DNA from: Streptomyces sp. CG1 | GTDB taxonomy: Bacteria; Actinomycetota; Actinomycetes; Streptomycetales; Streptomycetaceae | Direction of reading: 5' to 3' | Assembly (NCBI RefSeq): GCF_041080625.1 | Contig: NZ_CP163518.1 | Coordinates: 1,426,001 to 1,490,000, forward strand | Length of the DNA: 64,000 nucleotides | Shown here: piece after piece, positions 38,521-60,384 of the stretch | How positions within the stretch are numbered: the first letter of the stretch is position 1 | Layout of the letters: each line of letters opens with the position of its first letter | Notes under the pieces: generated by a model | The model's database searches: none | The model's input: only the letters and a program-made list of their open reading frames with translations | What the model was told of the DNA's origin: nothing | Translations under genes and position numbers: made by a program

Positions 38521-38579
38521 GGTTCTTCGTAACACGTGTTGATCCACGGCGGCCAGAGGTGGGCCCCGACGGTGGTCAC

Positions 38580-41251: not shown

Positions 41252-42094
41252 CTATCGTCCGACTTTGTACGGTGCCGGACGCGCCTGTGGGCCCAGCCTC
41301 GCCATGGCCCGCAGGATGTGTTTGGGGGGCAACTGCCAGCGCACACGTGCGGGAACGCGGCGCAGCAGGGCGCCCGTGGCCCGCAGCCGGCGGGTGACGA
41401 CGGCGGGTGCGGGGGCCGGTCTGCCGTACAGCTCATGGGCGTACGGAGGCAGAGCGGCGTATGCCAACTGGGCCACGCGCCGCCACAGCACCTCGCGCGC
41501 CGGTATGAGGAGCGGATGCGTCGGCGGGCGGAGCAGGAAGTCGTCGACGACGCGTGCCTCGCGTCCCGCGGTCAGCTCCGGCCGCACTTCCTCGAAGTAC
41601 GCGGCGAGTTGAGCCCGGCTCGCCGGTACGGTCTCCGGGTCGAGGCCCACCAGGCGTGCGCTGACCCGGTGTTCGGCGATGTACCGGTCGGCCTGGGCGT
41701 CAGTGAGCGGGAAGCCGGAGCGGCGCAGCACGTGCAGATAGGAGTCGATCTCCGCGCAGTGCACCCACAGCAGCAGCCCGGGTTCACCGACGCCGTACCG
41801 CTCGCCCGTGTCCGGGTCGGTCGCCGTCAGCATGCTGTGGATCTTGCGCACGCGGGCACCGGCACGCTCGGCGGCCTCGCTGGTGCCGTACGTCGTCGTA
41901 CCGACGAAGTTCGCCGTCCGCATGAGCCGGCCCCAGGCGTCGCGCCCGAAGTCGGAGTTCTGGACGACGCCCCGCACCGCCCGCGGGTGCAGGGCCTGGA
42001 GATAGAGCGCACGGACACCGGCGACCCACATCATCGGGTCGCCGTGCATCTGCCAGGTCACGGAGTTCGGCGTGAAGAGCCCGGGGTCGCCCAT
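41252..42094 (-). CDS. MpaB/rubber-oxygenase-like DUF2236 protein, at the transposon edge
   Basis: The 280-residue product matches DUF2236/MpaB haem oxygenase-like proteins: VTWQMHGDPMMWVAGVRALY, LQALHPRAVRGVVQNSDFG, TTTYGTSEAAERAGARVRKI, LLLWVHCAEIDSYL and ELYGRPAPAPAVV. The family includes latex-clearing protein and MpaB; the His residues in LHPRAV and WVHCAE are the likely haem or metal ligands. The ATG at 42094 has an in-frame TAG at 42113-42115, which lies inside the transposon, so the transposon end sits only 4-5 bases upstream and no ribosome site of the gene's own remains. The N-terminus may be native or slightly shortened; expression is doubtful. Confidence 0.8.
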   Translation of the reverse strand: MGDPGLFTPNSVTWQMHGDPMMWVAGVRALYLQALHPRAVRGVVQNSDFGRDAWGRLMRTANFVGTTTYGTSEAAERAGARVRKIHSMLTATDPDTGERYGVGEPGLLLWVHCAEIDSYLHVLRRSGFPLTDAQADRYIAEHRVSARLVGLDPETVPASRAQLAAYFEEVRPELTAGREARVVDDFLLRPPTHPLLIPAREVLWRRVAQLAYAALPPYAHELYGRPAPAPAVVTRRLRATGALLRRVPARVRWQLPPKHILRAMARLGPQARPAPYKVGR

Positions 42095-42098
42095 GCCC

Positions 42099-42219
42099 TG
42101 TGACGAGGATTTCTAGTTGGCGCCAGCGCACGATGTTGACCTGCAGTGATGCCAACTAGCCTCACGGGTCTTCCTGCCAGTTTCAGAAGGATTGTTGGCA
42201 CTTTTGTACACCGCAGGTC
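42099..42219. repeat. transposon left-end region with inverted subterminal repeats
   Basis: After TGTGACGAGG come CTAGTTGGC (42113-42121) and its exact complement GCCAACTAG (42151-42159). A longer site, GACCTGCAGTG...GCCAAC (42138-42156), recurs in opposite orientation as GACCTGCGGTG...GCCAAC (read leftward from 42219 to 42194). Such repeated subterminal sites are expected as TnsB-binding sites. The rest of 42220-42440, between these and the tniQ-fusion stop, holds no gene that I can support. Confidence 0.5.
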
Positions 42220-42440
42220 AGGAGGGTTCCAGGCGCATCGACCGCCTATGAAGCGGTCCTGATCCCTGGCCGTCGCCGGCTGGCGAAGCGTGCATCGGCG
42301 TCGTCGCGACGTCCTCGGCAGCGCCCGACAGCTCGTATCCGCTCCGGGGCGGACCAGCCGTCCCGCTGCGACGAAGACACCCAAGAGGACTTCGTGACCA
42401 TCCAGGTCACGCCGCGGGCGACCCTGCTCTTCTTCGTGGC

Positions 42441-44903
42441 TCAGCCGACCAGGTCGGCGCGCGTCCCGAGGTCCGTCAACGAGTCCTTTTGCTGGGCTCC
42501 TGTTGAGGTGACGCCCATTCGGTGCCGCCTGTGTTCCCTCTTGTCGGCGCGGGCGCTGACAGCATCGATGGCGTGGCGGGGCCAGTCCGACTCGCCCTGA
42601 GTATCGGGGATGGCGGGGAGCAGTTGGCGCAACCGGATCCACACCCCCGCCTCGGTCCATTCGATGAACCGTCGGTATGCGGTTTGACCCGAGAGTCCGA
42701 ACCCGAGTGGAAGTTGATTCCAGCCGCAGCCCGAGATCGCAGTGAAGACGATCGCGGCCAGGCTCTCCCGGTTGCCATGGCGTCGGGACGTGATGGCCGG
42801 TTCCCGTTCAGGCGTTGTCGGAACCACTTGTTGGAATAGGTCCCACAAAGTGTCCGGCACCATTTGTTCGACGGGGTCCCTCAACTCACGGACGGCACGG
42901 CCCGGCATCGCGGCCCACGACATCGCTTCGAGACCTTCTTGAGCTGTTTTGTCACGGGTGGCGTTGGACGCCAAGTCCGTTTCGTCACGGACGATCTGCA
43001 ACACCGGGACGGCCAGGTCACGCTTGTGATCGCATGAAGTCGCGAGGCGTTCTGCATACAGCCGGAGTCTGCGGCGCAGCCTCAGGCTTGGCCCTCTGAG
43101 CCCGTCGCTGAGCCTGCCCAATCGGCTGGCGAGTGGCTGGGTGTCCTCGCCGCGCTGCCGAAGGTCGAGCACTACCGGGCTGCGCATGCGCTCGCCTTGG
43201 GTGGCCTCAGCCCAGATAAGGGCCGAGCCGATCCGCGTGTCCGCGTTCTCCCTCAGCCGATCCAGCCTGGGAAGCCCGTCACACATGGCGCGCCAGTCGT
43301 GTACAGGAAGCCGCCAAGAGGCCAGCCTTCGGCGCCGATCGGCATAGTCAACGCGCGGCGCGGTCGCGTCCAGGTGTTTCGCAATCTGTTCGACGACTTC
43401 TTCGAAAGCCGGCCAGAGGCCGAGTGTGTCCAGGTGGCGTCCAAGGTATTTGAGGGTGCGCTCGGCAAGCTTCTGCTGCATACCCACCGCGGCCGCGCAT
43501 TCGGCCCATGTTGTGCCTGACACCAGCTCCGCCAGCCGCAGGGATGCAGCCCGGCGTAGGTGACGTTCGATCGCTGCGTCACCGCTCGGTAGGAGCCTGA
43601 TGAAGGCGGCAAAGTGCTGTTCAAACCACGGCCGGGGCAGGAAAGAGGGTATCTCTTCCACGCGGAACCGATGTTGGGTCGAGACGGTGCGCAGGTTGCG
43701 CCGGAGGGGAAGTCCATGGATACGTCGGACCGTGACACGGGCGAGGGCCGTTGAGATGTCGGCGCTCCTGCAGATGCCTCCGGCGTAGCTTCTTGCGCGG
43801 CGGTACGCTTCGCTGGCCAGTGGCTGAACACGGGCCCGGAGCGCGCCCAGTTCACGATCGCCCAGGAGCACATCGGCTCCGAGGAGTAGGGCACCGCATA
43901 TCAAGGAGTCGTCGGGGGCAACCTTCGCACCGCGGCCGCTCCATACTCCGCGTCCCCGATGTTCGGCCGTGAGCTGAGCGATAACAGGTTCTGCGTGTGC
44001 CTGGACCAGGGCTGCCAAGTGAGAGGAAGGGAGGAACTCGGCGCCCAGCGGCCACGTCAGTTTCATGAGGTGGGTGATCGCGATCAGGTCCGAAAAGTAG
44101 GACCTGTCAGGCATGGCGTCCCTGCCCCAGCGTTGCCCCTGCGGAGAGAGGTAGTCCAGGACGCGCTGTTGCAGGCTCAGGAGCTGATCCAAGTCGTCGT
44201 TGGGCAGGCCGGTGCCGATGCGGGAGTTGATGCCGTCCAGTCGCGCTCTGCACAGCACGCTCCGGGCTCGCTCCGCGCTGTCGGACCGGTCGCCGGTCTG
44301 ACGAGGAACGGTGTTGCGACATTCCAAAGGGTGCAGCCCAGTCAGCCCGGCGTTCTTGATCAGAGTCGAGTGGCCGTGACCTGCTGCACCGCCAGCCGCA
44401 TTGAGCGGAAGGTTGCATGCCGGGCAGAGGTATTCCAGCAGGCGACGGTGGCGCACGCAGGCGAAGACGACCGGAAGATGCCAGAGCAACTGCCACCCTC
44501 CGCCCAGGGATTGCTCGACCGCCCTGGTGTCCCCCTTCAGGCAGTCGGGGCAGTAGCGGCTGGAGCAGGTCATCGCCCAATTGACCGAAGCGGCAGACCC
44601 GATCCTGTTGGTATTCGTGCGGAGCCTGCTCAGTGGCGGATAGGTCTGGGTGAATCGTCGCAAGGTCAGGCCGTCGGCTTCGTGCTCGGTCAGGCGTGCG
44701 GTGAAGGCGAACTGTCGCAGCGTCTCCTCGCGGATGGTTCGAAGGCAGGCGGAGGAGAGGCGACGCTGCCGCACGTCCAGGCCGCACAGCTCCGCGATCC
44801 GGACGGGAGAGCGATCCAAGCGGTAGGCCGTGCGGAGCAGGAAGCCCGGCAGGGACTCGCCTTCCAACGGCTCGAGATTTCGCGGCAGCTGTCGGGGTGT
44901 CAT
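42441..44903 (-). CDS. tniQ: TniQ family protein fused to an IS5-type (DUF4096) DNA-binding domain
   Basis: The 820-residue protein is collinear with the second TniQ (49870-51744) for about 620 residues: the N-terminal GESLPGFLLRTAYRLDRSP and zinc ligands C118/C121, H152, C160/C163 (RYCPDC, CVRHRRLLEYLCPAC) fall at the same residue numbers in both. Beyond residue 620 there is a linker, then residues ~673-785 match the DUF4096 head of IS5-group transposases (MVPDTLWDLFQQVVP, SLAAIVFTAISGCGWNQLPL, TAYRRFIEWTEAGVWIRL, SDWPRHAIDAVSARADK). Only the first catalytic Asp region is present; the second Asp and the Glu of the DDE triad are absent. In Tn7, TnsD is a TniQ with a C-terminal DNA-binding part, so this may be a target-selecting TnsD analogue. 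The ATG at 44903 follows GGGGAG. Confidence 0.85.
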   Translation of the reverse strand: MTPRQLPRNLEPLEGESLPGFLLRTAYRLDRSPVRIAELCGLDVRQRRLSSACLRTIREETLRQFAFTARLTEHEADGLTLRRFTQTYPPLSRLRTNTNRIGSAASVNWAMTCSSRYCPDCLKGDTRAVEQSLGGGWQLLWHLPVVFACVRHRRLLEYLCPACNLPLNAAGGAAGHGHSTLIKNAGLTGLHPLECRNTVPRQTGDRSDSAERARSVLCRARLDGINSRIGTGLPNDDLDQLLSLQQRVLDYLSPQGQRWGRDAMPDRSYFSDLIAITHLMKLTWPLGAEFLPSSHLAALVQAHAEPVIAQLTAEHRGRGVWSGRGAKVAPDDSLICGALLLGADVLLGDRELGALRARVQPLASEAYRRARSYAGGICRSADISTALARVTVRRIHGLPLRRNLRTVSTQHRFRVEEIPSFLPRPWFEQHFAAFIRLLPSGDAAIERHLRRAASLRLAELVSGTTWAECAAAVGMQQKLAERTLKYLGRHLDTLGLWPAFEEVVEQIAKHLDATAPRVDYADRRRRLASWRLPVHDWRAMCDGLPRLDRLRENADTRIGSALIWAEATQGERMRSPVVLDLRQRGEDTQPLASRLGRLSDGLRGPSLRLRRRLRLYAERLATSCDHKRDLAVPVLQIVRDETDLASNATRDKTAQEGLEAMSWAAMPGRAVRELRDPVEQMVPDTLWDLFQQVVPTTPEREPAITSRRHGNRESLAAIVFTAISGCGWNQLPLGFGLSGQTAYRRFIEWTEAGVWIRLRQLLPAIPDTQGESDWPRHAIDAVSARADKREHRRHRMGVTSTGAQQKDSLTDLGTRADLVG

Positions 44904-45256
44904 GCTGCTGCTCTCCCCTTTCCGAAACGCCCAGGGCCGACAAGGTGCCGTCCGTTCGGACCTCCGCGACAACGGCGCCACAAGTCAGCCGAGATTCGGA
45001 GCACTTCCCTTCTCTCGCGACCAACGGCAGCGCGTGGCGGCTCACGAAAGGGCCGGAGGCATTTCTGTCACCGCACGGATCCCAGCAGCCGCACAGTCAA
45101 CCAGCACGCCACCACTGACCGGTCAGCTCCGCCCACAACATCACTCGTATGCGTGACACGCGAACGGATGACCGACTTCAGCGAGGGCAGACACCGTACC
45201 GTCGTCGCACTCTTGAGATTCGGATCACGAGGCAGAAAAGGTCAAAGGATTCGCGA
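44904..45256. promoter_or_regulatory. divergent promoter region between the tniQ fusion and tnsA
   Basis: This 353-bp gap must drive both the leftward tniQ fusion and the rightward tnsABC-tniQ operon. It contains a perfect 12-bp palindrome CTGACCGGTCAG at 45115-45126, a candidate site for autoregulation, for example by TnsB or a host repressor. AAGGA at 45245-45249 is the tnsA ribosome site. No short gene is recognised. Confidence 0.45.
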
Positions 45257-46138
45257 GTGAACTCGACTGATTTTACGCGACGTTGGCGCTCCGGAGCGGC
45301 CACGCCCTCGGACCCTGCATGGTCGGATGCGTGTCATCTCGAAGATCTTGCGCTTCTGTACACCGGGTTCACGGACTACACGCAGGCCTTGGATCTCGAC
45401 GAGCAATGGCCCCTGCGCTGGAGCAGCACGTGGAAGTTCAGCCAGACTCCGATCACCATCTCGGTGCGTGACATGGACAAGGTGGATTTACGGCGAACCG
45501 TCCCGGTCCGCCGCTTCACGTGGCGTACGGACCAGTTCCACCGCCCGGGCCTCGAGTACCTGATGGCGACGGATCGGCACCATGGCTTCGAGAGCCACGA
45601 GGAGGAACGACTGCTGCTGGTCGCCGACTTCGCCGCCGGTCTGATGGAGGCCCTGTGTCAGCCGTTCCGGCTGCGGTTCCTCTCCGGCGGCAAGACGATC
45701 GGGCACACCCCGGACTTCCTGCTGGTCACGGATTCCGGGCTCTTCTTGATCGACGTGCGTCCGGCCGATCGGATCAAGCCGGAGGATGCGCTGAAGTTCG
45801 CCGCCACGGCGGAGGCCGCGCTGTCGGCGGGGTGGCAGTACGGCGTCGTGGCGGGGTGGCGCCAGCATGTGTGGACGAACGTGGACGCGCTCTCCGCGGA
45901 GCGACGTCCGCTGCCTGATGTGCTGGGAATTCAGGGCCAGTTACGGGAGGCGGCAGCACATGGCCCGTTGCCGTTCGGCGAGCTGGTGGAGCGCTGCCCA
46001 ATCCCGGCGATCGGCCGGGCTCATGCGATCCACCTGCTGTGGCACCGCCACCTCGGTGTGGATCTCTCCGGGCCGTTCGGGGACGCGAGCCTGGTCCGCC
46101 TGGCTCCCCAGCAGCATCACCGGGAGCTGTCACGGTGA
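45257..46138 (+). CDS. tnsA: TnsA-like heteromeric transposase endonuclease subunit
   Basis: The 293-residue product has the restriction-endonuclease-like core of TnsA: an acidic helix HEEERLLLVADFAAG (E115-E117), GHTPDFLL with Asp153, and LFLIDVRPADR (Asp166, Arg168), followed by the WQYGVVAGWRQHVW strand-helix. In Tn7 TnsA the last motif carries a catalytic Lys; here the position is Arg. The enzyme should cut the 5' transposon strands so that the element moves by cut-and-paste rather than replicative cointegration. The GTG at 45257 is taken as start (AAGGA, 7-base spacer). The stop overlaps the tnsB start as GTGA. Confidence 0.85.
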   Translation: MNSTDFTRRWRSGAATPSDPAWSDACHLEDLALLYTGFTDYTQALDLDEQWPLRWSSTWKFSQTPITISVRDMDKVDLRRTVPVRRFTWRTDQFHRPGLEYLMATDRHHGFESHEEERLLLVADFAAGLMEALCQPFRLRFLSGGKTIGHTPDFLLVTDSGLFLIDVRPADRIKPEDALKFAATAEAALSAGWQYGVVAGWRQHVWTNVDALSAERRPLPDVLGIQGQLREAAAHGPLPFGELVERCPIPAIGRAHAIHLLWHRHLGVDLSGPFGDASLVRLAPQQHHRELSR

Positions 46139-48528
46139 GCACCGCAGTAGATCCCATGTGGAACCTGGAGCCAGGCGCCGAGCTGATCATCAGCGGCAGC
46201 CCCTGGCGGATCCAGTCCTGCCTGCCCCACCTCGGCCGGGTCACGCTCGTCGACGACGACGGCGAAACGTGGAAGACCTCGCTGAGCGAACTGATCCATC
46301 GCCCGGACTGCCGCCCCTCCACCCGGACTCGCACGGACCTGCCAGCCGCGGACCGGGGCCGACAGCCAAAGGCGATGGACGACCTGGAGGAGCACGAACG
46401 CACGATCGTCATGCTCCGCATGGAGCACCTGTGGGAGGTCGAGACTGGATTTCGCAGTGGCGATCCACTCGACGCGCTGCCGCATGAACCGCGGCCGCAG
46501 TACGACCCGGACACCACGACGCTGACCCAGCGCCGACTCGCGAAAGTAGCGGAACTGCGGAAAGCCGCGGCCGAAGCGCCCGCGCAGGCGAAGGCCAACG
46601 GGCTGCACCGAGCAAGTCTGCGCACGCTGGTCCGTTGGGACACCGCACGGGCGAAGTACGGTCCGATCGGCGTCGCGGACGATCGATGGCTGCGGGAAGC
46701 CAGCGGGCACACGATCTCCCCCGAACTGCGCGAGGCCCTGTTTGCGGTGTACGCCGAGGCATCGGATCGTCGCTCGAAGCTGACCATGCGAGACAAAGAG
46801 CGTCTTATCCACCAGTACGTGCGCGAAGTGTTCGGCTCCGCGGATGCCGAACCCACTGACAGTGAAGCCACCGACCTTGAATCCGCTGAAAAACCGAGCG
46901 TGAAGATCCCTAACTACGACACCCTGCGCGCCATCTGGAAGGAGTGGTTCGGATCCAACGGAGCGCGGCAGCGTTACGCACGCTCGGCGGCGAAGGCGAA
47001 GCAGTACGCGACCGGCCGGCACATCGTGGTGCACCGGCCCGGCCAGGTGGTGGCGCTGGACAGCACAGTGTTGCCGGTGAAGGTGCTGGACAACGTGTTC
47101 GGCGACCCGGTGTCCGTATATCTGACGCTAGCCGTGGACGTCTACACCCGCTCGATCGTCGCGTTCCGGCTCAGCCTCGTCTCCGACAAGTCGATCGACG
47201 TGGCGATGGTGCTGCGGGACATGATGATGCCGCTGCCGATGCGCCCGGGCTGGGGGAAGGCCGTGGAGTGGGCCTACCCCGGCGTCCCCAACACCGTGGT
47301 CGCGGAGTTCGCCGGCTACGAGGTCGCCGGACTGCCATTCTTCCCACCCGAGACGGTCACCACCGACCACGGCTCCGCCTACCGCAACCACCACCTCGTC
47401 GAAGTGCAGCGGGTCATTAAGGCAAACATCAAACCCAGCCGCGTACTGCGCCCTACCGACAAGCACTCCGTGGAACGGACATTCGGCGCCATCAGGTCAC
47501 TGCTGTTCACCCTCCTGCTCGGCTACCAGGGCACGGACGTCGCCGACCGAGGCGTGGACCCGGAGGCCGACGCCTGCCTGACCGTGACGGAGATGGAACA
47601 CCTGATCGCCACGTGGGTTGTCGAGACCTGGCAGAACCGGCGCTTCGGCTCGTACGCCCCGAGCTGGGACCCGCGCGGCGACCACAGCCCCAACACTCTG
47701 TTCGCGGCGGCGATGTCCCAGGGCGGATTCGCCCTGCGGATTCCGCCCGCCGAGCTCTACTACCAGCTCCTGCCGCGCCACAAGGTCATGATCCACGGAA
47801 AGCGAGGCGTGAAGATCAAGAACCTCTGGTACGACGGCGAGGCCCTCGATCCCTACCGCGGAGAGCTCTCCCGCCGCGGCGGGAAGAACAAGAACAAGTA
47901 CGTCATCCACCGCGACCCCCGCGATCCGTGTTTCGTGTTCTTCCAGGACCCGAATACGCACGACTGGCACACGCTGCGCTGGACGGGCCTGCCCGAGGAA
48001 GGCGAGGTGCCCGCGTTCAGTGATGCCCGCGTGCGTGAAGCCATGCGGGAACTGCGCAAGAGAGGTCTTGCCCCAAAGGCGGACACCGAACTCCTCCCGG
48101 CACTCCTTGAGTTGATCGGCGGCAACATCCCGGTCGAAAAGTGGCCCACTCAGCTCTCCAAGCGGCAGCGTACCGAGCATGCACGCGAAGTCGCCCAGGC
48201 GGCCGCGGCGGCCGCCGACCGTCCCACAAGCGCGGTCAGGAAGGAGCCGCCAGCACAGACCGCCTCTGTTCCCGCAACGCGGGCAGGCTCCGCTGGCGGC
48301 AAGGTCGTGCCCCTGCGTCCGAAGGACCGGGCTCAGCAAGTACACGATGCAGTGAACAGCGAACGCCGGCGCCGCCGTGAAGCCGCGGTCCCCAGCCAGC
48401 TGTCCGCACCCCCCGATCTTTCCGAACGGCTGCGCGCTTCGAGCCTGCTGGCGCTGCCGGATGACGAATTCGACGATGACGACGCCATCAACGCGGCCAG
48501 CGAGGCCGAGGAAGAGGCCGGTCAGTGA
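46135..48528 (+). CDS. tnsB: TnsB-like DDE transposase (Mu-transposase C-terminal family)
   Basis: The 797-residue product has an N-terminal DNA-binding part with helical HTH-like segments (about 75-280), then an RNase H-fold catalytic core with the DDE triad at Asp309 (VVALDSTVL), Asp411 (VTTDHGSAY) and Glu447 (SVERTFG); the 35-residue Asp-Glu spacing is the standard D,D35E pattern. A Mu-transposase C-terminal beta-barrel follows (about 565-640) and then a basic Ala-rich tail (QAAAAAADRP, RRRREAAV), likely the TnsC-contacting end. It should cut the 3' ends and join them to the target. GTG start at 46135 overlaps the tnsA stop; the stop overlaps the tnsC start. Confidence 0.92.
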   Translation: MSTAVDPMWNLEPGAELIISGSPWRIQSCLPHLGRVTLVDDDGETWKTSLSELIHRPDCRPSTRTRTDLPAADRGRQPKAMDDLEEHERTIVMLRMEHLWEVETGFRSGDPLDALPHEPRPQYDPDTTTLTQRRLAKVAELRKAAAEAPAQAKANGLHRASLRTLVRWDTARAKYGPIGVADDRWLREASGHTISPELREALFAVYAEASDRRSKLTMRDKERLIHQYVREVFGSADAEPTDSEATDLESAEKPSVKIPNYDTLRAIWKEWFGSNGARQRYARSAAKAKQYATGRHIVVHRPGQVVALDSTVLPVKVLDNVFGDPVSVYLTLAVDVYTRSIVAFRLSLVSDKSIDVAMVLRDMMMPLPMRPGWGKAVEWAYPGVPNTVVAEFAGYEVAGLPFFPPETVTTDHGSAYRNHHLVEVQRVIKANIKPSRVLRPTDKHSVERTFGAIRSLLFTLLLGYQGTDVADRGVDPEADACLTVTEMEHLIATWVVETWQNRRFGSYAPSWDPRGDHSPNTLFAAAMSQGGFALRIPPAELYYQLLPRHKVMIHGKRGVKIKNLWYDGEALDPYRGELSRRGGKNKNKYVIHRDPRDPCFVFFQDPNTHDWHTLRWTGLPEEGEVPAFSDARVREAMRELRKRGLAPKADTELLPALLELIGGNIPVEKWPTQLSKRQRTEHAREVAQAAAAAADRPTSAVRKEPPAQTASVPATRAGSAGGKVVPLRPKDRAQQVHDAVNSERRRRREAAVPSQLSAPPDLSERLRASSLLALPDDEFDDDDAINAASEAEEEAGQ

Positions 48529-49772
48529 CCTCGAAGCAGAACCTGCTGTCGTTCCTCCCCGGCCCGGCGGTGGACCGCACCACCTTCGAGGGCTGGAACC
48601 GATGGTGCGAGACCCGCGCAGCCTTTGTCCCCGCGCCGATCCTCACAGCTGAGGAGTACGACCGCCTGTCGCCGCGCCGGCAGCGCATCCACGACCTGCA
48701 CCGCCTCGCGACGCACAGCTCGCTGCCGATCCAGGCCACTCCTATGAGCGAACGCGTCGCCCACGCGGTGCTTGCCCGCGTCGAGGACGGCGCCTTCAGC
48801 CACAAGGCCGGGACCCGCGGCGGCATCATGGTCAACGGCGACGGCGCCCAGGGCAAGACCGAGACGATCTGCGAGGCCCTGGCCTGCTTCCAGGAGGAGT
48901 GGCTGGCCCTCCACAACTACGCTAACCCCGACGCCATGCCCGGCACCCGCGACCTGGTCGCCCCCGTCGCCTACGTACGCTGTCCGGTCAAGGCCACGCC
49001 CATCTCCACCTGCCAGCGGATCCTCGACTTCTACGGCGAGGACTACAAGGGCATGCGCCTGGAAGACCTCGTACGCACCGTCAAGACCGCGGTCGTCGAG
49101 CACGCCACCAAGGCCCTCGTAATCGACGACATCACCCGCCTCAAGCTCCACCGCGAAGCCGACCAGGACGTCCTCGACCTGCTCCGCGAAATGATGAGCA
49201 TGCCCGTCACGCTCATCCTCGTCGGCGTCGGCATCCCCAACTCGGGCCTGCTCCGCGAAGGCCGCCGCGACCCCAAGACCCAGGAGTGGATCTACGAGCC
49301 GGTCAAGGACCGCGGCCGCAGCCCCAACGACCACGCCGCCAGCCAGCACGAACGCCGCTTCCAGGTCGTCGACCTCGGCCCCTTCAGGTACGCCACACCT
49401 ACGCAGATGGAGGCCTGGATGGTCCATCTCCGGCGCCTGGAAGGCGAGTTGCGGCTGCTGACCAGCACAGTCGGCATGCTTACCGAGGGTGACATGCCCG
49501 AGTACTTGTTCAACCGCACCAAGGGCGTGGTCGGCATCTTGGAGAAGCTCATCCAGCACGGCTGCCGCCGCGCCATGGAGGACAAGAGCGAACGCCTGAC
49601 GAAGGAGCTGCTCAACCAATTCACCGTCACCCCCGACGACATGCCCGACCTCGACGCGGCATCCGGCGAGCAGCCCCACATCCCGCCCCACGAACCGACG
49701 CAGAAGAAGAAGTCGCCGGGCCGCAACACCGTATTCGACGACGACGGCCCGGCCGAGGCCGACGCCGGATGA
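48525..49772 (+). CDS. tnsC: TnsC/TniB-like AAA+ ATPase regulator of transposition
   Basis: The 415-residue product is an AAA+ ATPase: Walker A GDGAQGKT (105-112), Walker B ALVIDD (197-202), a sensor-1-like segment LILVGVGIPN, and a variable C-terminal region with basic stretches (PTQKKKSPGRN). In Tn7-like systems TnsC polymerises on DNA and links the target-bound TniQ/TnsD to the TnsAB transposase. GTG at 48525 overlaps the tnsB stop (GTGA). Its stop overlaps an ATG (ATGA) of a short reading frame that precedes tniQ. Confidence 0.9.
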   Translation: MTSKQNLLSFLPGPAVDRTTFEGWNRWCETRAAFVPAPILTAEEYDRLSPRRQRIHDLHRLATHSSLPIQATPMSERVAHAVLARVEDGAFSHKAGTRGGIMVNGDGAQGKTETICEALACFQEEWLALHNYANPDAMPGTRDLVAPVAYVRCPVKATPISTCQRILDFYGEDYKGMRLEDLVRTVKTAVVEHATKALVIDDITRLKLHREADQDVLDLLREMMSMPVTLILVGVGIPNSGLLREGRRDPKTQEWIYEPVKDRGRSPNDHAASQHERRFQVVDLGPFRYATPTQMEAWMVHLRRLEGELRLLTSTVGMLTEGDMPEYLFNRTKGVVGILEKLIQHGCRRAMEDKSERLTKELLNQFTVTPDDMPDLDAASGEQPHIPPHEPTQKKKSPGRNTVFDDDGPAEADAG

Positions 49773-49873
49773 CAAAGACACAGAGCCGGCCTGTGGCCCG
49801 CAGCCTGGTGCCGCTGCCGGAGGCCGAACCGGGCCACCTCCGCTACCGTGCACAACAGATTCTCGTCCATTGA
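49769..49873 (+). CDS. 34-codon ORF, apparent relic of a tniQ start, bridging tnsC and tniQ
   Basis: ATG at 49769 overlaps the tnsC stop (ATGA) and the frame ends in TGA at 49871-49873, which overlaps the TTG start of tniQ (TTGA). The product begins MTKTQSRPVARSLVPLPEAE and resembles the first residues of both TniQ proteins here (LARSLAPLSEESLPG, LPRNLEPLEGESLPG). After that the match stops. The likely explanation is that an older tniQ was replaced by the present one, leaving its first codons; the short frame may now only serve translational coupling. Confidence 0.6.
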   Translation: MTKTQSRPVARSLVPLPEAEPGHLRYRAQQILVH

Positions 49874-51744
49874 CCACACATCCACTGGCCCGGAGCCTCG
49901 CCCCGCTGTCGGAAGAGTCTCTACCAGGGCTGATCCTTCGCCTGGCCTACCGACTGGATCGCTCGCCAGCCAGGATCGCCGCGCTGTGCGGACTGAGCCG
50001 TCACCAAAACCGGCTACCAGCCGAGTACTTGATCTCCGTGCCCGCTGAGTCCGCCAAGGCTCTCAAGGCAGCTGCATCTCTGCGCGAGGGCGAAGCCGAC
50101 GCTCTCACCCTGTCAGCCATGGCCGCCTCCTACCCGCCACTGGCCACGATGCGTCTGGGTGGTAGTCGCAATATGGCCTCTGCCCGACGCACCTGGGCCT
50201 TCAGCCTGTCCAGCCGCTACTGTCCGAACTGCCTCGCCGGGGACGGGAGCCCGATCCAGAATGAGTATGGCGGCCCATGGAGACTGCGCTGGCATATCCC
50301 GATCTCCTTCGCGTGCACTACCCACAACCGCTTCCTGGAGCGTGGATGTCCGCAGTGCGGAGGGCATCCGAACCAGCCCTCGAACACCGAGCGACAAGGG
50401 CTCATCACACAGAGCACGATCGGTGGACTACACCCGGCGCAGTGTCGCCATCACCTCGCATCCGGCCCAGCCAGTGCGAGCATCCGGACACGGCTGTGTG
50501 CAGCGCGACTCAACCAGGGGGCCTCTGTACCCGAACGACCGGACAGCGACCTTGTCACCATGCTCGCACTGCAGCGACGCGTCGACCGGCATCTCACTCC
50601 CACCAAGCCCTCACCCGCAGCCAACGCAAGCTACTCAAACCTAGAGCAGCACTTCTTTTCCGACCTCATCGCCGCCGCTCAACTCATCCGGCTCAGCTGG
50701 CCCGACAGTGCATGCTTCGCCCCATCCAGCACCGTCGCCGACCTGATTGCCCACCACGTGGCCACCTGGACCGCCCTCCGCGAAAACCGCAGCCCCGGCA
50801 GGCGCGTCCGCGATGCATGGGCCGCTCCCCAATGCCCGGCCGAGTGCGGAGCACTGTTGCTCGCGGCGGACACCCTGCTCGGCGACCGAGGCCAGGACGG
50901 TCCGGCCCTTCGCGAGCGGATCCAGCCGCTCGCCACCGCCGCCTTCACGCGCAACGAGGCCAACACCGGCGCCACCTTCCGGCGCATGGACGTCTCCTCA
51001 GACCTGGCAAGGGCCCTGGCGCAGCGATCCCTCGGCTTCAACCGCGCCGGCGGCCATCACCACGCCAAACAACACGTTCCCTCGCGTCAGTCCCATTTCG
51101 GGATCGAGCATGTGCCAGCTCTCTTGCCCGAGTCCTGGATCGGCGCGCACTTCAGCGATCTGACGTCCCTGTGGGATCCCAGGGACGTCTGGAGACCACG
51201 CCATCTACGCCGAGTAGCTTCCCTCAAGCTCGTCGAATTGGCCGGCGGCGGCACCTGGCCACAATGTGCCGTAATCCTGGGAATACCGCGCGTCACCGCC
51301 CAACGTAGCCTGACCGTACTCAAGCGAAGCCTGCTACCCGGCGGCCTATGGCCACTGCTCGACACGGCGGTCGAGACCGTCGCGCAGGGATTGGACGCCG
51401 ATCCACTACGCATGGATTTCGCTGCGCGTCGCCGAACGCTGAGTACCTGGCAGATCCCTGTCGAGGACCTGGCTGCACTCACGACAGGCCTGGTCAGTCT
51501 CGCCAACGCGGAGTCCCCTTTGACCCGGGCTGCGGCAACCGCAATCGTGTGGGCTCGCGTCACCCAGGGCGACCATCTGCACAGCCCGCCGGTCGAAGTA
51601 CTCCGCGAAGCGCAGCAGAGTACCAAGCCCTTGGTCTCCGCCATCGGACAGCTGCAGACACCCGGCAATCGCAGAGGAGCCAGACTCGTCTTCCTTCAAC
51701 GCATCAACGAATACGCCGATGGCCTCGCCCAAACTCTCAATTAG
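49870..51744 (+). CDS. tniQ: TniQ family transposition targeting protein
   Basis: The 624-residue product has the TniQ N-terminal domain (EESLPGLILRLAYRLDRSP) and zinc ligands C118/C121, H152, C160/C163 (RYCPNC, CTTHNRFLERGCPQC). A long helical C-terminal region with TnsD-like features follows (TWPQCAVILGIPRVTAQRSL, AATAIVWARVTQGDHLHSP). It lacks the IS5-like extension of its paralogue. In Tn7-like systems TniQ proteins recognise the target or bridge to a targeting module and recruit TnsC. The start is TTG at 49870, overlapping the stop of the preceding short frame. It is the last gene of the tns operon. Confidence 0.88.
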   Translation: MTTHPLARSLAPLSEESLPGLILRLAYRLDRSPARIAALCGLSRHQNRLPAEYLISVPAESAKALKAAASLREGEADALTLSAMAASYPPLATMRLGGSRNMASARRTWAFSLSSRYCPNCLAGDGSPIQNEYGGPWRLRWHIPISFACTTHNRFLERGCPQCGGHPNQPSNTERQGLITQSTIGGLHPAQCRHHLASGPASASIRTRLCAARLNQGASVPERPDSDLVTMLALQRRVDRHLTPTKPSPAANASYSNLEQHFFSDLIAAAQLIRLSWPDSACFAPSSTVADLIAHHVATWTALRENRSPGRRVRDAWAAPQCPAECGALLLAADTLLGDRGQDGPALRERIQPLATAAFTRNEANTGATFRRMDVSSDLARALAQRSLGFNRAGGHHHAKQHVPSRQSHFGIEHVPALLPESWIGAHFSDLTSLWDPRDVWRPRHLRRVASLKLVELAGGGTWPQCAVILGIPRVTAQRSLTVLKRSLLPGGLWPLLDTAVETVAQGLDADPLRMDFAARRRTLSTWQIPVEDLAALTTGLVSLANAESPLTRAAATAIVWARVTQGDHLHSPPVEVLREAQQSTKPLVSAIGQLQTPGNRRGARLVFLQRINEYADGLAQTLN

Positions 51745-52308
51745 GCAAAGCCGATCATCGAAAAATACAAGCCCGAAGAAGGCATCATCGTCATCTCCGG
51801 CCTGGCGCCCGTTTCAGACGTCACAGAGCGCACAGTAGACGCATCGCTGAATGCATGAACTGATCGATGTTCTCGGGAGGCACCGGAGCGCGTACGGGCG
51901 TCTCCAGAAGGGCGTCAGCGCCTCGCAGGCACTGCCCCAAGCCCCCCGCCACGTCGAGCTCCTCCTGCCAGGCCACGGCCTCCGCGTAAAGCTGCGCGTT
52001 TCAGAACCTGGGCGGACGAACTCGGGCCCTCCTGCCGGCTGCCCAACAGGCTGGGATCCGCAGCTTCCCGCTGATCACCGCCTCCTCCGATGCCTGGCGC
52101 GCGCACGGCATGGGCGCCCGTCACCGGCCAGATCCCCCAGGTCGACACGGCGTGTTCCTGTAGTCACCTCTGTGACTGTTCTTCGACTACCCACCGACCG
52201 CCGCCCGATTGCAGCCGTCTGCGATGCGGGGCGGGCAGGAAAGTTCGAATCCCGACATACGACGCCCGTCACACATAGACGCCTGGGTTCTCACCGCTGT
52301 GAAGACGC
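51745..52308. other. right-end region of the transposon with gene fragments
   Basis: No intact gene is seen. The frame of tniQ stays open after its TAG for 37 codons (KPIIEKYKPEEGIIVISGLA and on) to a TGA at 51855-51857. On the other strand, 51821-51994 reads as the well-formed end of some protein (QLYAEAVAWQEELDVAGGLG, later PPENIDQFMHSAMRLL) with an in-frame stop just upstream, so it is a 3' gene fragment of unknown family. An inverted repeat AGTCAC-CTCT-GTGACT lies at 52162-52177. TGTGACG copies read leftward from 51825 and 52273 are the candidate right ends. Confidence 0.45.
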
Positions 52309-52346
52309 GATGGCCGGCGCCCCACGGGTGCGGGACTCCGGCCATC
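52309..52346 (-). terminator. hairpin after the small membrane protein gene
   Basis: A perfect 9-bp inverted repeat GATGGCCGG (52309-52317) and CCGGCCATC (52338-52346) lies 9 bases beyond the stop of the leftward gene at 52355, as expected for its terminator. It marks the resumption of ordinary chromosome to the right of the transposon. Confidence 0.6.
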
Positions 52347-52354
52347 GGCGGGGT

Positions 52355-52609
52355 TCAGTGGGCGGCGGCCGTGTGCAGGGCCTTCGCGTACAGGGTCTTC
52401 CAGAGCCTTCCGGCGCCCGGCATCACGAAGAAGACGAGGAGCGCGATGGAGGCCAGGGTGAAGGGGAATGGGCGTACCCACTGGTTCCAGTTCGCGAAAC
52501 GGTCGCCGATGGTCAGGGAGTACAGCCGGTCCGAGGAGTAGATGGTGACCAGCAAGGTGAGGAACTCGGCCCAGTGAGGCATGGTCGGCGTGCGGAAGAT
52601 GTGCTTCAT
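52355..52609 (-). CDS. small membrane protein, 84 aa, unknown function
   Basis: The product has one clear hydrophobic helix near the C-terminus (PFTLASIALLVFFVMPGAG, about 48-67) and a weaker amphipathic segment near the N-terminus (HWAEFLTLLVTIYSSD). I do not recognise the family. It lies 14 bases after the carboxylesterase gene on the same strand, with a GGAG-type site before its ATG, so it should be co-transcribed with the esterase. Confidence 0.65.
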   Translation of the reverse strand: MKHIFRTPTMPHWAEFLTLLVTIYSSDRLYSLTIGDRFANWNQWVRPFPFTLASIALLVFFVMPGAGRLWKTLYAKALHTAAAH

Positions 52610-52623
52610 GACGGTCTCCTCTC

Positions 52624-54087
52624 TCAGCCGAAGTGGCGGATGCGGGCTGCGGTCGCGGGCGCGTAGGGCAGCCAGTTGCTGGTCGTTCCAGTGGTGACGA
52701 ATTCGGCGACGGCGGTTGCGAATTCGAGGCTCAGGGTGCGCTGGGCGTCGCCGGCGCCGGCGAGGACGGGGCTGCCGGGGTAGGCGTCGAAGGTGTTGAA
52801 GAGGAAGGGCAGTTCGGCGCAGTGGGTGGCGCCCAGGGCGTACGGGTCCTCGGCGGGGGCGTAGTCGAACTGGTAAACGTAGGTGGTGTTGCCGCCGGCC
52901 GCGTGATGGTCGGCGATCTCCAGCGAGCCGTCGCGGAAGAGGCCGTCGGTCTGCACCGAGGTGAAGATCTGCGCCGGTGTCGCCTGCGGGAGGCGGGCGG
53001 CGTGCTGCTGGTAGACGTCCTGGGCGGCCTGTCGGCCGACCTGGGCGGTGAGGACGTCCAGGGCGGTTTCGGTGGTGAGGTTCTGGATGCGGGGGTCGAA
53101 GGCGAAGAAGGCCGTCGCTTCGTCGCGGGTGGTGCCGATCAGCAGGGTCTTGCCCTCCAAAGCGCCGTCATTGAGCGCCTGTTGCCGGGTGCGGGGCATG
53201 CCGGGGGCACCGAGGACCGGGTACATCGGCGGAGCCGCGCTACCCGGAGCCGCGAGCTGGACGGAGAGCCGGCCGTAGGCGTCCAGCAGTTGCTCGGCCG
53301 GCAGGGCACGCAGGGCCTTCGCGGCATCAGTGCCGACTGGGATGTCCAGCAGGCGCAGGTAGGCGTCGGCGTTCTCGGCGGCCTGGTGCGGATCCTGTGG
53401 GTTCAGGCCGAAGGGGCCGCTCTGCAGCAGCACCCGGGTGATGGACCCGTTCGTCTCGGGGTCGAGCGCAAGCGACAGGGCCGAGTACGCTCCGGCGGAC
53501 TGCCCGCCGACGGTGACCGTGCGCGGGTCGCCGCCGAAGGAGGCGATGTTGTTCTGCACCCAGCGCAGCACGGCGGCCTGGTCCTGGGGGCCGAGGTTGG
53601 CTGCGCCGATCTGCGGCAGGTAGAGGTAACCCAGCGGTCCCACCCGGTAGTTGGCGGTGACGACCACGATGTCGCCCAGCGCGGCGAGGCGGCCGCCGTC
53701 GTACCAGTCCCAGCCGCCGGAGCCGCTGGTGAAGCCGCCGCCGTGCCACCAGAGCAGGACGGGTCGGGCCGCACCGTCCGCCAGCGCCCGGCGTGGAGTG
53801 AAGACGTTGACGGTCAGGCTGCCGTCCTCGTTCCAGTCCGGCACGCGCTGCCCCTGCACCTTCTCCAGCCGGGAGGCCGCCTGCGGAACGGAGGGGCCGG
53901 CCTTGGCCGCGTCCCGCACGTCCGTCCAGCCCGGGTGCGGCTGCGGCGGCGCGAACCGCAGCTCGCCGACCGGCGACGCGGCGTACGGGATTCCCCGGAA
54001 GGAGACCGCCTCGCCCTCCGTAACGCCCCTGACCTTGCCCCAGTCGGTGTCCACCACCGTGTGCTCGATACCGGTCATCGTGCTCAC
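52624..54087 (-). CDS. carboxylesterase/lipase (type B, PnbA-like)
   Basis: The 487-residue product is a full-length type B carboxylesterase: VSFRGIPYAASPVGELRFAP, the oxyanion loop VLLWWHGGGFTSGSGG, VVVTANYRVGPLGYLYLP, the nucleophile elbow TVGGQSAGAYSAL with catalytic Ser, a Glu candidate in IGTTRDEATAFF and the His region ALGATHCAELPFLF. There is no signal peptide, so it acts in the cytoplasm. It is divergent from an Lrp-type regulator that probably controls it. A decayed gene of the same family lies at 62061-63079. Confidence 0.9.
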   Translation of the reverse strand: MSTMTGIEHTVVDTDWGKVRGVTEGEAVSFRGIPYAASPVGELRFAPPQPHPGWTDVRDAAKAGPSVPQAASRLEKVQGQRVPDWNEDGSLTVNVFTPRRALADGAARPVLLWWHGGGFTSGSGGWDWYDGGRLAALGDIVVVTANYRVGPLGYLYLPQIGAANLGPQDQAAVLRWVQNNIASFGGDPRTVTVGGQSAGAYSALSLALDPETNGSITRVLLQSGPFGLNPQDPHQAAENADAYLRLLDIPVGTDAAKALRALPAEQLLDAYGRLSVQLAAPGSAAPPMYPVLGAPGMPRTRQQALNDGALEGKTLLIGTTRDEATAFFAFDPRIQNLTTETALDVLTAQVGRQAAQDVYQQHAARLPQATPAQIFTSVQTDGLFRDGSLEIADHHAAGGNTTYVYQFDYAPAEDPYALGATHCAELPFLFNTFDAYPGSPVLAGAGDAQRTLSLEFATAVAEFVTTGTTSNWLPYAPATAARIRHFG

Positions 54088-54192
54088 CAGCTCTCTCGTC
54101 TCGGTTTCTCTGAGACGTTTCTAAGCCGAGGCGAGAATCTGAGCCAGAAATGACCATCTGGATCGAGGAAAAAGGACATATGATCTCGATCT
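54088..54192. promoter_or_regulatory. esterase/Lrp divergent promoter with inverted repeat and 6-codon leader
   Basis: CGTCTC (54097-54102) and GAGACG (54112-54117) form an inverted repeat near the esterase start. A leader frame ATG at 54180 (M-I-S-I-Y-G, stop TAG at 54198-54200), with AAAAAGGA just upstream, overlaps the Lrp start codon at 54193. Confidence 0.5.
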
Positions 54193-55170
54193 ATGGATAG
54201 AGTGCGCCATCTGTTGAATGAAACAGACAGTCGGATCGCCGCCGCGATGCTGGCTGCTCCGCGTGCCTCGTGGCGCACGGTCGGCCGTGTCCTGGGCATC
54301 TCGGAGCGCACTGTCGTACGCCGGGCGGCACCGCTGTTCGGCGACGGGACGCTGCGGGCCACGGCCGTACGCAATCCCGTGCACTTCCCTGAGCTGATTC
54401 CGCTGGCCCTGCGCATCCGCTGCCGGCCCAACCGGATCAGCGCCATCGCCGCCACCCTCGCCCGCCGCCCCGACACCATCTGGGTCGACGTCCTCGGTGG
54501 CGGCGACGAGATCTGCACCATCCTGTTCCTGGACGGACCGGACGCCCGCAACAACCTGCTGCTGCGCGACCTGCCCGCCACCCCCGCGGTCCAGGACTGG
54601 ACCTCGCACGTCCTGCTCCGGGTCTTCCCGGCCGCCTTCGACTGGAGCGGCGGCCTGCTGACACAGACCGAACTGACCAGCCTGCGGCCCGACCTGTCCG
54701 CGGCACCTACCCGCCCCGTCCTTCAGTCTCTCGACCACCAGCTGATCACCGCGCTGATCGAGGACGGCCGAGCCCCCTACACCGACCTCGCCCGCCGCGC
54801 CAACACCACCGCCTTGACTGCTCGCCGCCGGGTAGAGGCACTGGTCAACGGCCAGGTACTCAGACTCGCGACCGAAGTCGATCTGGCCCGGCTGGGCGTC
54901 CGGACCGAGGCACTCCTGTGGATCACCGTCGCACCTGGCGGACTGGAGGAGACGGGCCAGCAGCTCAGCCGCCACCCACAAGTCCGCTTCGCCTCTGCCA
55001 CCACCGGCTCGGCCAACCTCCTTGTGGCCGTCGCGGCAACCGACCTCGACGCGCTCTACCACTTCCTGAGCGACACCATCGGCGCCCTCGAACACATCAC
55101 CACCCTTGAGGTCACCCCCATCCTGACCGGGGTGAAGAGGACCGGCCTGGTCCGCCCGGGCAGCCTCTGA
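54193..55170 (+). CDS. Lrp/AsnC family regulator with duplicated domains
   Basis: The 325-residue protein has two Lrp-type units: an HTH (RTVGRVLGISERTVVRRAAP) with an effector-like domain (about 60-160), and a second HTH (YTDLARRANTTALTARRRVEALVNG) with a RAM-like domain (TEALLWITVAPGGLEETGQQL to LEVTPIL). Double Lrp proteins of about 320 residues are common in Streptomyces. An in-frame stop at 54181 limits the start to ATG 54193, which has no ribosome site of its own and overlaps a six-codon leader frame, so translation is probably coupled. It probably regulates the divergent esterase. Confidence 0.85.
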   Translation: MDRVRHLLNETDSRIAAAMLAAPRASWRTVGRVLGISERTVVRRAAPLFGDGTLRATAVRNPVHFPELIPLALRIRCRPNRISAIAATLARRPDTIWVDVLGGGDEICTILFLDGPDARNNLLLRDLPATPAVQDWTSHVLLRVFPAAFDWSGGLLTQTELTSLRPDLSAAPTRPVLQSLDHQLITALIEDGRAPYTDLARRANTTALTARRRVEALVNGQVLRLATEVDLARLGVRTEALLWITVAPGGLEETGQQLSRHPQVRFASATTGSANLLVAVAATDLDALYHFLSDTIGALEHITTLEVTPILTGVKRTGLVRPGSL

Positions 55171-55753
55171 GCCGATCACAGGTTCCGGGTCGGCAGGACC
55201 TCACGTCCGTTCGGCTGCGGACAACGGACAAGAACAATCCCTGTCCAGGACGAAACCGATCACCCCGCCTTCACTGATCAGCGCCTGATCCGGATCATGC
55301 GGGACAGTGGAGCGCGTGGGAGCGGTGGGTGTGTCCGGCCGGAGGACAGACAGCTCGGTTTCTGAGAGCAGGCCGCCGCTCCAGTCGAAGGCGGCCGGGA
55401 AGACCCGGAGCAGGACGTGCGAGGTCCAGTCCTGGACCGCGGGGGTGGCGGGCAGGTCGCGCAGCAGCAGGTTGTTGCGGGCGTCCGGTCCGTCCAGGAA
55501 CAGGATGGTGCAGATCTCGTCGCCGCCACCGAGGACGTCGACCCAGATGGTGTCGGGGCGGCGGGCGAGGGTGGCGGCGATGGCGCTGATCCGGTTGGGC
55601 CGGCAGCGGGTGCGCAGGGCCAGCGGAATCAGCTCAGGGAAGTGCACGGGATTGCGTACGGCCGTGGCCCGCAGCGTCCCGTCGCCGAACAGCGGTGCCG
55701 CCCGGCGTACGACAGTGCGCTCCGAGATGCCCAGGACACGGCCGACCGTGCGC
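54273..55753. repeat. 387-bp inverted repeat (54273-54659 and 55367-55753)
   Basis: The two 387-bp arms are inverted copies of the first-domain coding region of the Lrp gene. Comparison of the translations in three frames shows one base difference (the Ile/Thr codon near 54414-54416). Both ends break sharply: outside the arms the two copies diverge, and after the 3' break the truncated copy continues with similar but clearly different Lrp-like sequence. About 707 bp separate the arms. Confidence 0.85.
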
Positions 55754-55760
55754 AATGATG
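55201..55760 (-). pseudogene. truncated second copy of the Lrp/AsnC regulator gene
   Basis: On the reverse strand the sequence reads as the first Lrp unit, from RTVGRVLGISERTVVRR through WSGGLL. It then has a divergent tail (SETELSVLRPDTPTAPTRST) and an early stop at 55201. The true N-terminus (the first ~25 residues including MLAAPRAS) and the entire second Lrp unit are missing. It is not expected to bind DNA in the normal dimeric form. The identical core and divergent tail point to gene conversion between paralogues rather than a simple duplication. Confidence 0.75.
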
Positions 55761-55799
55761 CAGAGCAACGGAAACGAAAGGTGAGCACGTGAGGGGATC

Positions 55800-56030
55800 G
55801 CCGAGATAAGTCCATGAGGGGGGCGGGGTGATCTTGAAGCCCTGAGCGCCCGGAGTCATCTCCAGCACTGGCGTGGCAGTCGATGCCGTGTGGGGAGAGG
55901 AAGTCGCCGACCCAGCTGATGCTGGTGAGCAAGGCGTTAGATGGTCGGCCATCCACGAACCGGCGGCGTGGAAAAGTTCGGATTCCTCTGATCCGGTGAA
56001 CGTGATGACCTGGATATTGCCCTGGTAGGG
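55800..56030 (-). pseudogene. frameshifted small Streptomyces protein of unknown function
   Basis: Reverse-strand reading gives NIQVITFTGSEESELFHAAG and SWMADHL in one frame, then ALLTSISWVGDFLSPHGID in the next, and finally PLMDLS. Together these resemble a ~70-residue hypothetical protein seen in Streptomyces that starts with an IQVITF strand and ends with a TVDLS-like strand. The shift near 55940 breaks it. The family match is from memory and weak. Confidence 0.4.
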
Positions 56031-56141
56031 CTGCCTTCGACGGGGCCGTGGTACGTCTGGTAGCCGCGCGGGGAACACCGGAACCGTGGCATTCTCGCGA
56101 GGGCAAAACGGTCGAGCTCCCGACCCGACTCACTTCGGGGC

Positions 56142-57320: not shown

Positions 57321-57549
57321 CTGCTCTCTCATCTCAAAGCGGCCCATAGCCATGGAGGACACGGTCTGAGCAACACGGTCAGCTACACGTCGATCGGCTT
57401 GCCGTTCGTTACAGCGGAACCACACTCGGCGAGCTCGCTCCGCCGCGCCCTGCCCCTGCGGCGCGTCGGCACCTCCGAACCGGCCGAGGAACAACCGAAC
57501 GAACGACCGGCGCCTACTTCGCTTCCTGGGGCGAGGCGGTTCATTGCGT

Positions 57550-58767: not shown

Positions 58768-58802
58768 CGACGGGCTCCTCGTGACAGGGGAGAACGGAAG
58801 GG

Positions 58803-60185: not shown

Positions 60186-60384
60186 CGGCGGTCACCGCCT
60201 CACCCACGAGGATCGCCTGGACCGGGCACGCTGCAGCGGCTTGGCGCACGCGCTCCAGCTGCTCGTCCGGGACTTCCTGGCGGTACAGCAGCGCTTCCTC
60301 GCCATGCAGCTCGAACATCTCCGGTGCGAGAAACACGCATTGCGCATACGCCTGGCAGCGGGTGAGGTCCACGACGATCCGCAT
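60169..60384 (-). CDS. 3Fe-4S ferredoxin partner of the P450
   Basis: The 71-residue product has the P450-type ferredoxin pattern with Cys10, Cys16 (CQAYAQC) and Cys53 (AACPVQAI). The cubane fourth Cys is replaced by Tyr13, so a 3Fe-4S cluster is expected. GGAGGGAGAGG precedes the ATG. It is the first gene of the ferredoxin, reductase, P450 operon and passes electrons from the reductase to the P450. Confidence 0.9.
   Translation of the reverse strand: MRIVVDLTRCQAYAQCVFLAPEMFELHGEEALLYRQEVPDEQLERVRQAAAACPVQAILVGEAVTAGARAR

Follow-up and report, generated by a model that had tools for sequence, protein, structure and literature searches.

A CRISPR-free Tn7-like island of Streptomyces with two TniQ proteins, one of which is tied to the home site

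The 64,000-nucleotide stretch of the Streptomyces sp. CG1 chromosome analysed here (contig NZ_CP163518.1, positions 1,426,001 to 1,490,000; hereafter the window) contains the tns-gene end of a Tn7-like island of 62,040 bp, which runs from window position 42099 to extended coordinate 104138 (G000:C1:1530138), extended coordinates being the window numbering continued past its edge. The island encodes a TnsABC core and two TniQ proteins, TniQ2 (624 aa; 49870..51744, plus strand) and TniQ1 (820 aa; 42441..44903, minus strand). The preferred reading, held at a probability of roughly 70%, is that these are two target selectors, of which TniQ2 homes to the 3′ end of an acyl-CoA dehydrogenase gene (AcCoADH) and TniQ1 reaches other targets. 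Among the related elements, referred to by their G (genome) and L (locus) labels, the home site tracks TniQ2 and not the core, with one exception, G312b. The element is real, yet about six times longer than in the initial annotation, which had placed its right boundary at 52273.

Eight elements with a TniQ2 of the window type lie at AcCoADH (the window, G022, G140, G143, G144, G154, G161 and G299), their TniQ2 proteins being 48–83% identical to that of the window; the G022 contig holds only the tnsA-side end. The cargo-side end is located 5 bp after the AcCoADH stop codon in seven of nine junctions, 7 bp after it in G161 and 10 bp after it in the window. Three elements, G141, G142 and G107, instead lie behind a PotD-like gene, with the end at 17–18 bp in all three. 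The TniQ2 proteins at this second site are 39–41% identical to that of the window, while the accompanying TnsA, TnsB and TnsC are 81–94% identical to the window proteins. Insertion is thus site-specific, with the end at a fixed spacing behind a conserved gene at either site. A PotD site was expected for G107 because its TniQ2 and the G141 protein share 58.6% identity, and this prediction, recorded before the sequence was analysed, was borne out: the element lies behind the PotD-like gene, in a genome that also carries AcCoADH elsewhere. The likeness of the TniQ2 proteins at AcCoADH could also stem from recombination between co-located elements rather than from targeting by TniQ2, given that tandem arrays occur at or near this site in G143, G144 and G299 and that tniQ cassettes recombine; however, the base-pair-level offsets from the stop codon, the correct placement of G107 and the switch of home site with TniQ2 among such similar cores all speak against this origin, which is considered improbable.

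The tnsA-side end of the window element starts exactly at 42099, as initially proposed, and its outermost 123 bp or so (42099..42221), which contain AGTTGGC-type repeats, are common to L003, L006 and L007. The cargo-side end, 40 kb past the window edge and read from loci L096, L097 and L115, ends in ...GTGCCAACTAAAAATCCTCGTCACA, followed by TGCCC and then AcCoADH. TGCCC also directly precedes 42099 (42094..42098), forming a perfect 5-bp target duplication with the second copy at extended 104139-104143, outside the window. The last 50 bp of the cargo-side end match 12 other elements at 42–47 of 50 positions, and both ends have the form TGTGAC N9-10 TAGTTGGC, of the TGT...ACA type with repeated binding-site-like motifs. 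This end motif, with two mismatches allowed, gave 32 matches in the element's own genome against 26 in the control, a count that is hardly higher. Exact duplications flank further elements (GCGAG in G144, CACGC in G143, AGTCG in G141 and AGGCG in G299), as well as relatives at other sites (ACCAT in L009, GCAGT in L042 and GGTGC in G312a). The right end formerly read at 52273 was rejected: a GTCACA is present at 52268..52273, but it is accompanied by neither an AGTTGGC repeat nor a target duplication, the 5-mers being TGCCC to the left of 42099 and CATAG to the right of 52273.

A tree of 30 TniQ rows, from which L009_Q was left out as a long branch, places the eight AcCoADH TniQ2 proteins together with G124_Q2 and G312b_Q2 in one clade with 100/100 support, and the PotD pair (G141 and G107) in a clade of its own. 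A third clade comprises 12 of the 14 secondary TniQ proteins, with those of G140 and G143 outside, and the monophyly of all 14 is not rejected (p 0.294); a fourth unites the TniQ proteins of pFRL3, G192 and G312a with the second TniQ of G312b. Because G124_Q2, to which no site is assigned, nests among them, the seven AcCoADH TniQ2 rows put to the approximately unbiased (AU) test are rejected as a separate clade (p 0.00137); in the 30-row tree G312b_Q2 nests there as well. The core data reject a clade of the window, G144 and G022 (p 9.45e-07), whereas the TniQ2 proteins of these three group with 100/100 support. Synonymous divergence (pS) was used to separate exchange from fast evolution: between G140 and G143 it is 0.033 for tnsC, 0.064 for tniQ2 and 0.23 for tnsB, but 0.77 for tniQ1, and G141 and G154 differ by 0.129 in their third-slot genes but by 0.48 in tnsB and 0.37 in tnsC. 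Kindred secondary TniQ proteins are found at different home sites (61% identity between G144 and G107, 89% between G141 and G154), and therefore do not set the home site. The secondary tniQ slot is hypervariable and exchanged between elements. In the preferred reading, selector genes are swapped as cassettes; the home address changes along with TniQ2, and turnover of the secondary slot is independent.

Several observations weigh against the association of home site with TniQ2, or against a selector role for TniQ1. The remnants G225 and G308 lie at AcCoADH without a window-type TniQ2, and G312b has a window-type TniQ2 (52% identical) with its end in the 3′ part of another gene, assigned by eye as methyltransferase/NUDIX-type. 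This gene adjoins no other fetched element, and AcCoADH was not found in the G312b genome at E 1e-150. Few elements represent the PotD site, and two of them, G141 and G142, share 99.9% identity over 19 kb. The core and end of G141 are on separate contigs and were linked by their common AGTCG, and those of G142 are separated by 120 kb on a single contig. Nor is a clade of the G141 and G107 cores rejected (p 0.315). The clustering of TniQ2 proteins is partly by construction, since in elements with a tandem tniQ pair (G022, G161, G124 and G312b) the TniQ2 was named by its likeness to that of the window. The flanking 5-mers mismatch in G140, G225 and G308 and match at four of five positions in G107. 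Finally, no target of TniQ1 was found among these elements, nor any sign that TniQ1 acts.

The window element sits between the AcCoADH stop codon and an MPAB-type gene of the MPAB_Lcp_cat family (41252..42094, minus strand; PF09995, 217.9 bits), whose start codon was preserved at insertion. This junction remains closed in other Streptomyces, and the window flanks fit the closed order of AcCoADH stop, CCTGC, GGGCA and MPAB start; MPAB copies 84–93% identical adjoin AcCoADH in other genomes. Among 34 loci, AcCoADH is directly upstream of the MPAB-type gene in nine (13–31 bp between aligned ends), 162 bp away in one and 740–1295 bp away in four, and is not within the available 1.3–1.5 kb in 20, among them the loci of the window, G022, G141, G143 and G144. 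The MPAB-type gene was rejected as the recognised gene because the cargo-side end still abuts AcCoADH in the arrays of G143 and G144, in which the cores begin about 11 kb and about 65 kb from MPAB, respectively. In all nine elements whose tns genes and junction can be read together (the window, G144, G143, G140, G154, G161, G299, G107 and G312b), it is the cargo-side end that faces the attachment gene, and we infer that this gene, and not the other flank, is the recognised side. TniQ2 would recognise the 3′ end of AcCoADH and, presumably through TnsC, place the cargo-side end at the observed spacing of 5–10 bp after the stop codon.

This site appears to have been used more than once. Decayed transposon-end-like sequence (TGTGNCCACAG..., GACCTGC...) abuts the 5′ side of the MPAB-type gene in L059/L099, L063/L100, L066/L101, L067/L098 and L092, as judged by eye, and in some genomes the decayed ends seem, also by eye, to supply the first MPAB codons, suggesting old insertions at the same site. 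Tandem arrays consisting of an end, five or six bases and a further end mark elements that landed repeatedly side by side (L006 4460-4466, L007 6449-6455, L093 17509-17516 and L004 4060-4069), with further examples in L239 (G312 C165) and at the junctions of G299 and G301. In S. griseoruber (L003 5169-5747), a NUDIX-like reading frame, as seen by eye, is interrupted by the tnsA-side end and adjoins a homologue of the amine oxidase encoded at window 36955-38859. No MPAB-type gene was found at E 1e-40, and a deletion beside the element is likely.

The core genes occupy the plus strand in the order tnsA-tnsB-tnsC-tniQ2, with tniQ1 divergent, confirming the arrangement given in the initial annotation. 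The TniQ family assignment is secured by matches to PF06527 (cut-off 27) of 67.0 bits in TniQ2 and 70.4–70.5 bits in TniQ1, the domain of the latter covering residues 7-156 (44436..44885, minus strand); the longest open reading frame (ORF) of tniQ1 reaches 44981, and the two proteins are 40% identical. TnsC (48525..49772) is an AAA ATPase with a PF13401 (AAA_22) match of 41.4 bits (cut-off 27), and is 91–94% identical in the Streptomyces loci L003-L007. TnsA (45149..46138; 75–81% identical in the same loci) and TnsB (46174..48528; 85–91%) score below the Pfam cut-offs, at 24.9 bits for PF08722 (cut-off 26.5) and 22.1 bits for rve (cut-off 32.6), and are identified by gene order and by these five relatives, in which the genes are 75–94% identical and their order is unchanged. 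Both start codons are uncertain, an alternative tnsA call beginning at 45389 and the longest tnsB ORF at 46039. TnsA, TnsB and TnsC are thus found together with TniQ as one Tn7-like unit. Elsewhere in the same genome, a 53-codon tnsB fragment that is 60% identical (G000:C1:8927075-8927233; L002, L153) is the remnant of another element.

TniQ1 is distinguished by its C-terminal region, in which a DUF4096 domain (residues 683-758; 42630..42857, minus strand; PF13340, 63.3 bits, cut-off 34.3) is fused behind TniQ. DUF4096 is the N-terminal domain of IS5-type transposases. Among 112 listed homologues from a search in which the best 8000 candidates were scored, 15 further proteins carry this tail and are 47–77% identical to the window TniQ1; the domain was therefore rejected as a private insertion sequence scar. 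The 16 aligned fusions stop about 10–50 residues after DUF4096, none continuing into the full DDE catalytic domain of an IS5-family transposase, and 10 of these proteins retain the acidic residue that we take to open the IS5 catalytic triad. The ratio of nonsynonymous to synonymous divergence (pN/pS) in the tail is close to that in the body, at 0.23 versus 0.22 against G301 and 0.41 versus 0.38 against G308, values that for the tail come from few differences and carry no significance test. The tail might have arisen by chance read-through into a broken IS5-type element beside tniQ1, as the genome has 25 DUF4096 matches (22 above the cut-off, one of these being the tail itself) and the secondary TniQ proteins of the other fetched elements lack it, save those of G301 and G308; this explanation is largely refuted by the 15 homologues, the near-common end of the fusions and the tail pN/pS, and is regarded as highly implausible. 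TniQ1 would instead have captured the N-terminal domain of an IS5 transposase, most likely as an added DNA-binding module.

The mean predicted local distance difference test score (pLDDT) is 84.4 for the TniQ1 model, in which a weak linker at residues 651-663 precedes the tail, and 83.5 for the TniQ2 model. The best structural match of both is TnsD in 8v32; neither the DUF4096 part nor the C-terminal helices had a strong match among those listed. A tree of the DUF4096 fusions and IS5 copies gave no resolution, one of its rows being a mis-cut piece of the window protein. The fused DNA-binding-type domain initially suggested is real and belongs to a conserved family, although the targeting route proposed for it is not matched by any site linked to TniQ1. 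It is conceivable, if doubtful, that TniQ1 uses its IS5-family head to send the island to IS5-type sequences, a dispersal route beside the TniQ2 home site; such sequences would be common on chromosomes and plasmids, and the route would be CRISPR-free. The fusion gene is also retained in two degraded elements, at G301:C1 ~218757-241600 (93% identical) and G308:C1:9525548-9527923 (61% identical). The former has lost tnsB, tnsC and tniQ2, keeps esterase and Lrp cargo 96% identical to that of the window, and now lies 1.1 Mb from AcCoADH; the latter lacks tnsABC, and its tniQ1 contains a stop.

Relatives were drawn from seven loci (one partial) on named genome contigs and from further genomes. Two or three tniQ genes are present in all 11 elements found with a TnsB at least 73% identical, the window included (with G107, G140, G141, G142, G143, G144, G154, G161, G299 and G312b, the last having a frame break in tnsC). 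G124 also has two, its tnsB being cut by a contig end and its tnsC split. At 67–69% TnsB identity, G022 (coding sequences taken from L040) has two, and pFRL3 (L116) and G312a have one. More distant loci, namely L009, L041-L044 and the plasmid loci L117-L121, L125 and L126, showed a single tniQ; for most of these 8–10 kb was read on each side, so that a far second tniQ might escape. The secondary gene is divergent in the window, G140, G141, G142 and G143, lies upstream on the same strand in G144, G107 and G299, and forms a tandem pair after tnsC in G022, G161, G124 and G312b; a tniQ near the far end is the third such gene in G141 and G142 and the second in G154. No confirmed TnsB relative was found in viral contigs, and plasmid searches with both TniQ proteins returned no place at least 60% identical.

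These relatives bear on whether the second gene is a passenger, as the initial annotation supposed it would be if related elements lacked it or held it in decayed form. Such loss is not the pattern seen, as all 11 close elements keep a second tniQ, and pN/pS in the pairs measured is 0.22–0.56, well under 1. TniQ2 might still be the sole working selector, with TniQ1 and its kin playing no part in target choice and serving as passengers, regulators or competitors: none of the insertion sites could be linked to a secondary TniQ, the secondary types vary among elements sharing one site, and tniQ1 of G308 is interrupted. This is thought unlikely in view of the retention and constraint just described, the full-length TnsD-like model of TniQ1 and the conservation of its tail in 15 of the listed homologues. 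The preferred reading is thus that TniQ1 serves as a second selector on the same core and would reach targets other than AcCoADH.

The cargo inside the window (51745..64000) continues to extended 104138 and comprises 45 called ORFs in all, correcting the initial description of an element with no visible cargo. Of these, 43 were scanned for domains, two that span locus borders being left out, and together they resemble a catabolic and regulatory island. They include a P450 with ferredoxin and reductase, an FMN-dependent dehydrogenase, short-chain dehydrogenases/reductases and zinc-binding dehydrogenases; also present are esterases, a benzoylformate decarboxylase (over the NCBIfam cut-off), an LtrA-family protein and a UbiD that adjoins two flavoprotein genes. 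Regulators comprise an extracytoplasmic function-type sigma factor and MarR, TetR, MerR and Lrp-type proteins, and a UvrD-like helicase ORF lies close to the cargo-side end. The absence of CRISPR reported initially holds: no CRISPR-like array occurs in the full 62,040 bp and no Cas domain in the 43 scanned ORFs, so the island is not a CRISPR-associated transposon (CAST). TnsE was not among the cargo families, though no search aimed at it was made. The Lrp-type regulator gene at window 54193-55170 stands beside an inverted partial copy of itself (55267-55761, 87% identical), and a single ORF at L096 11161-12846 (extended 75161-76846) combines a lactonase-type beta-propeller with a fragment of an ISL3-type transposase.

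As in Tn7, whose TnsD acts at attTn7 (glmS), a TniQ-domain selector accompanies a TnsABC core, and insertion occurs at a fixed point behind a conserved gene with a 5-bp duplication (PMC2918618, PMC11406308); unlike in Tn7, the home gene is AcCoADH or a PotD-like gene. In the conventional naming, the right end is the one upstream of the tns genes, and Tn7 TnsD binds a site outside this end, whereas the attachment gene here faces the cargo-side end (PMC11406308). Faure 2023 counted 998 loci with two TniQ/TnsD proteins, 50 with more and 2,905 with one, and inferred duplication in situ with few exchanges (PMC10293859). The island resembles these dual elements in carrying at least two TniQ/TnsD proteins on one TnsABC core with no requirement for CRISPR, but the dual elements usually pair one long protein with a much smaller one (PMC10293859), whereas both are about 620–820 aa here, and cassette exchange is frequent here. 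Two-TniQ CASTs (I-B1, I-B2 and some I-F3) similarly combine a homing TniQ with a second-route TniQ (PMC11406308), although the present island lacks their CRISPR components. Tn6022, with TniQ and TnsF, likewise recruited a recombinase-derived protein as target selector, but that protein is a separate tyrosine-recombinase relative rather than an IS5-type N-terminal domain fused to a TnsD-like TniQ (PMC10293859).

According to a review, two pathways mostly stem from two TniQ proteins, natural TniQ fusions to DNA-binding domains are known, and partner exchange is noted for the I-D/I-B2 branch (PMC11406308). Dual TniQ without CRISPR is described in PMC10293859 and PMC11406308, and the general idea of the initial annotation, two targeting routes without CRISPR, was therefore already known; for this island it is the best-supported reading, with TniQ2 tied to a site and no target found for TniQ1. 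From its host and sequence, the element is assumed to fall in the Actinobacteria-dominated TnsB clade of Benler 2021, an experimentally uncharacterised group of Tn7-like elements (PMC8649781). Searches of the open-licence PMC literature found no paper joining DUF4096 and TniQ and no title on dual TniQ in Streptomyces; within these searches the IS5-derived tail appears to be new, as do the attachment (att) sites and the side of the element facing them.

These elements seemingly amount to a natural swap experiment, in which a near-identical core with a different TniQ2 is directed to a different gene with base-pair precision. They yield defined candidate att sites for the integration of large DNA in Streptomyces, make it possible to test directly how address and orientation are set by a TniQ, and provide a candidate selector built from an insertion sequence transposase.

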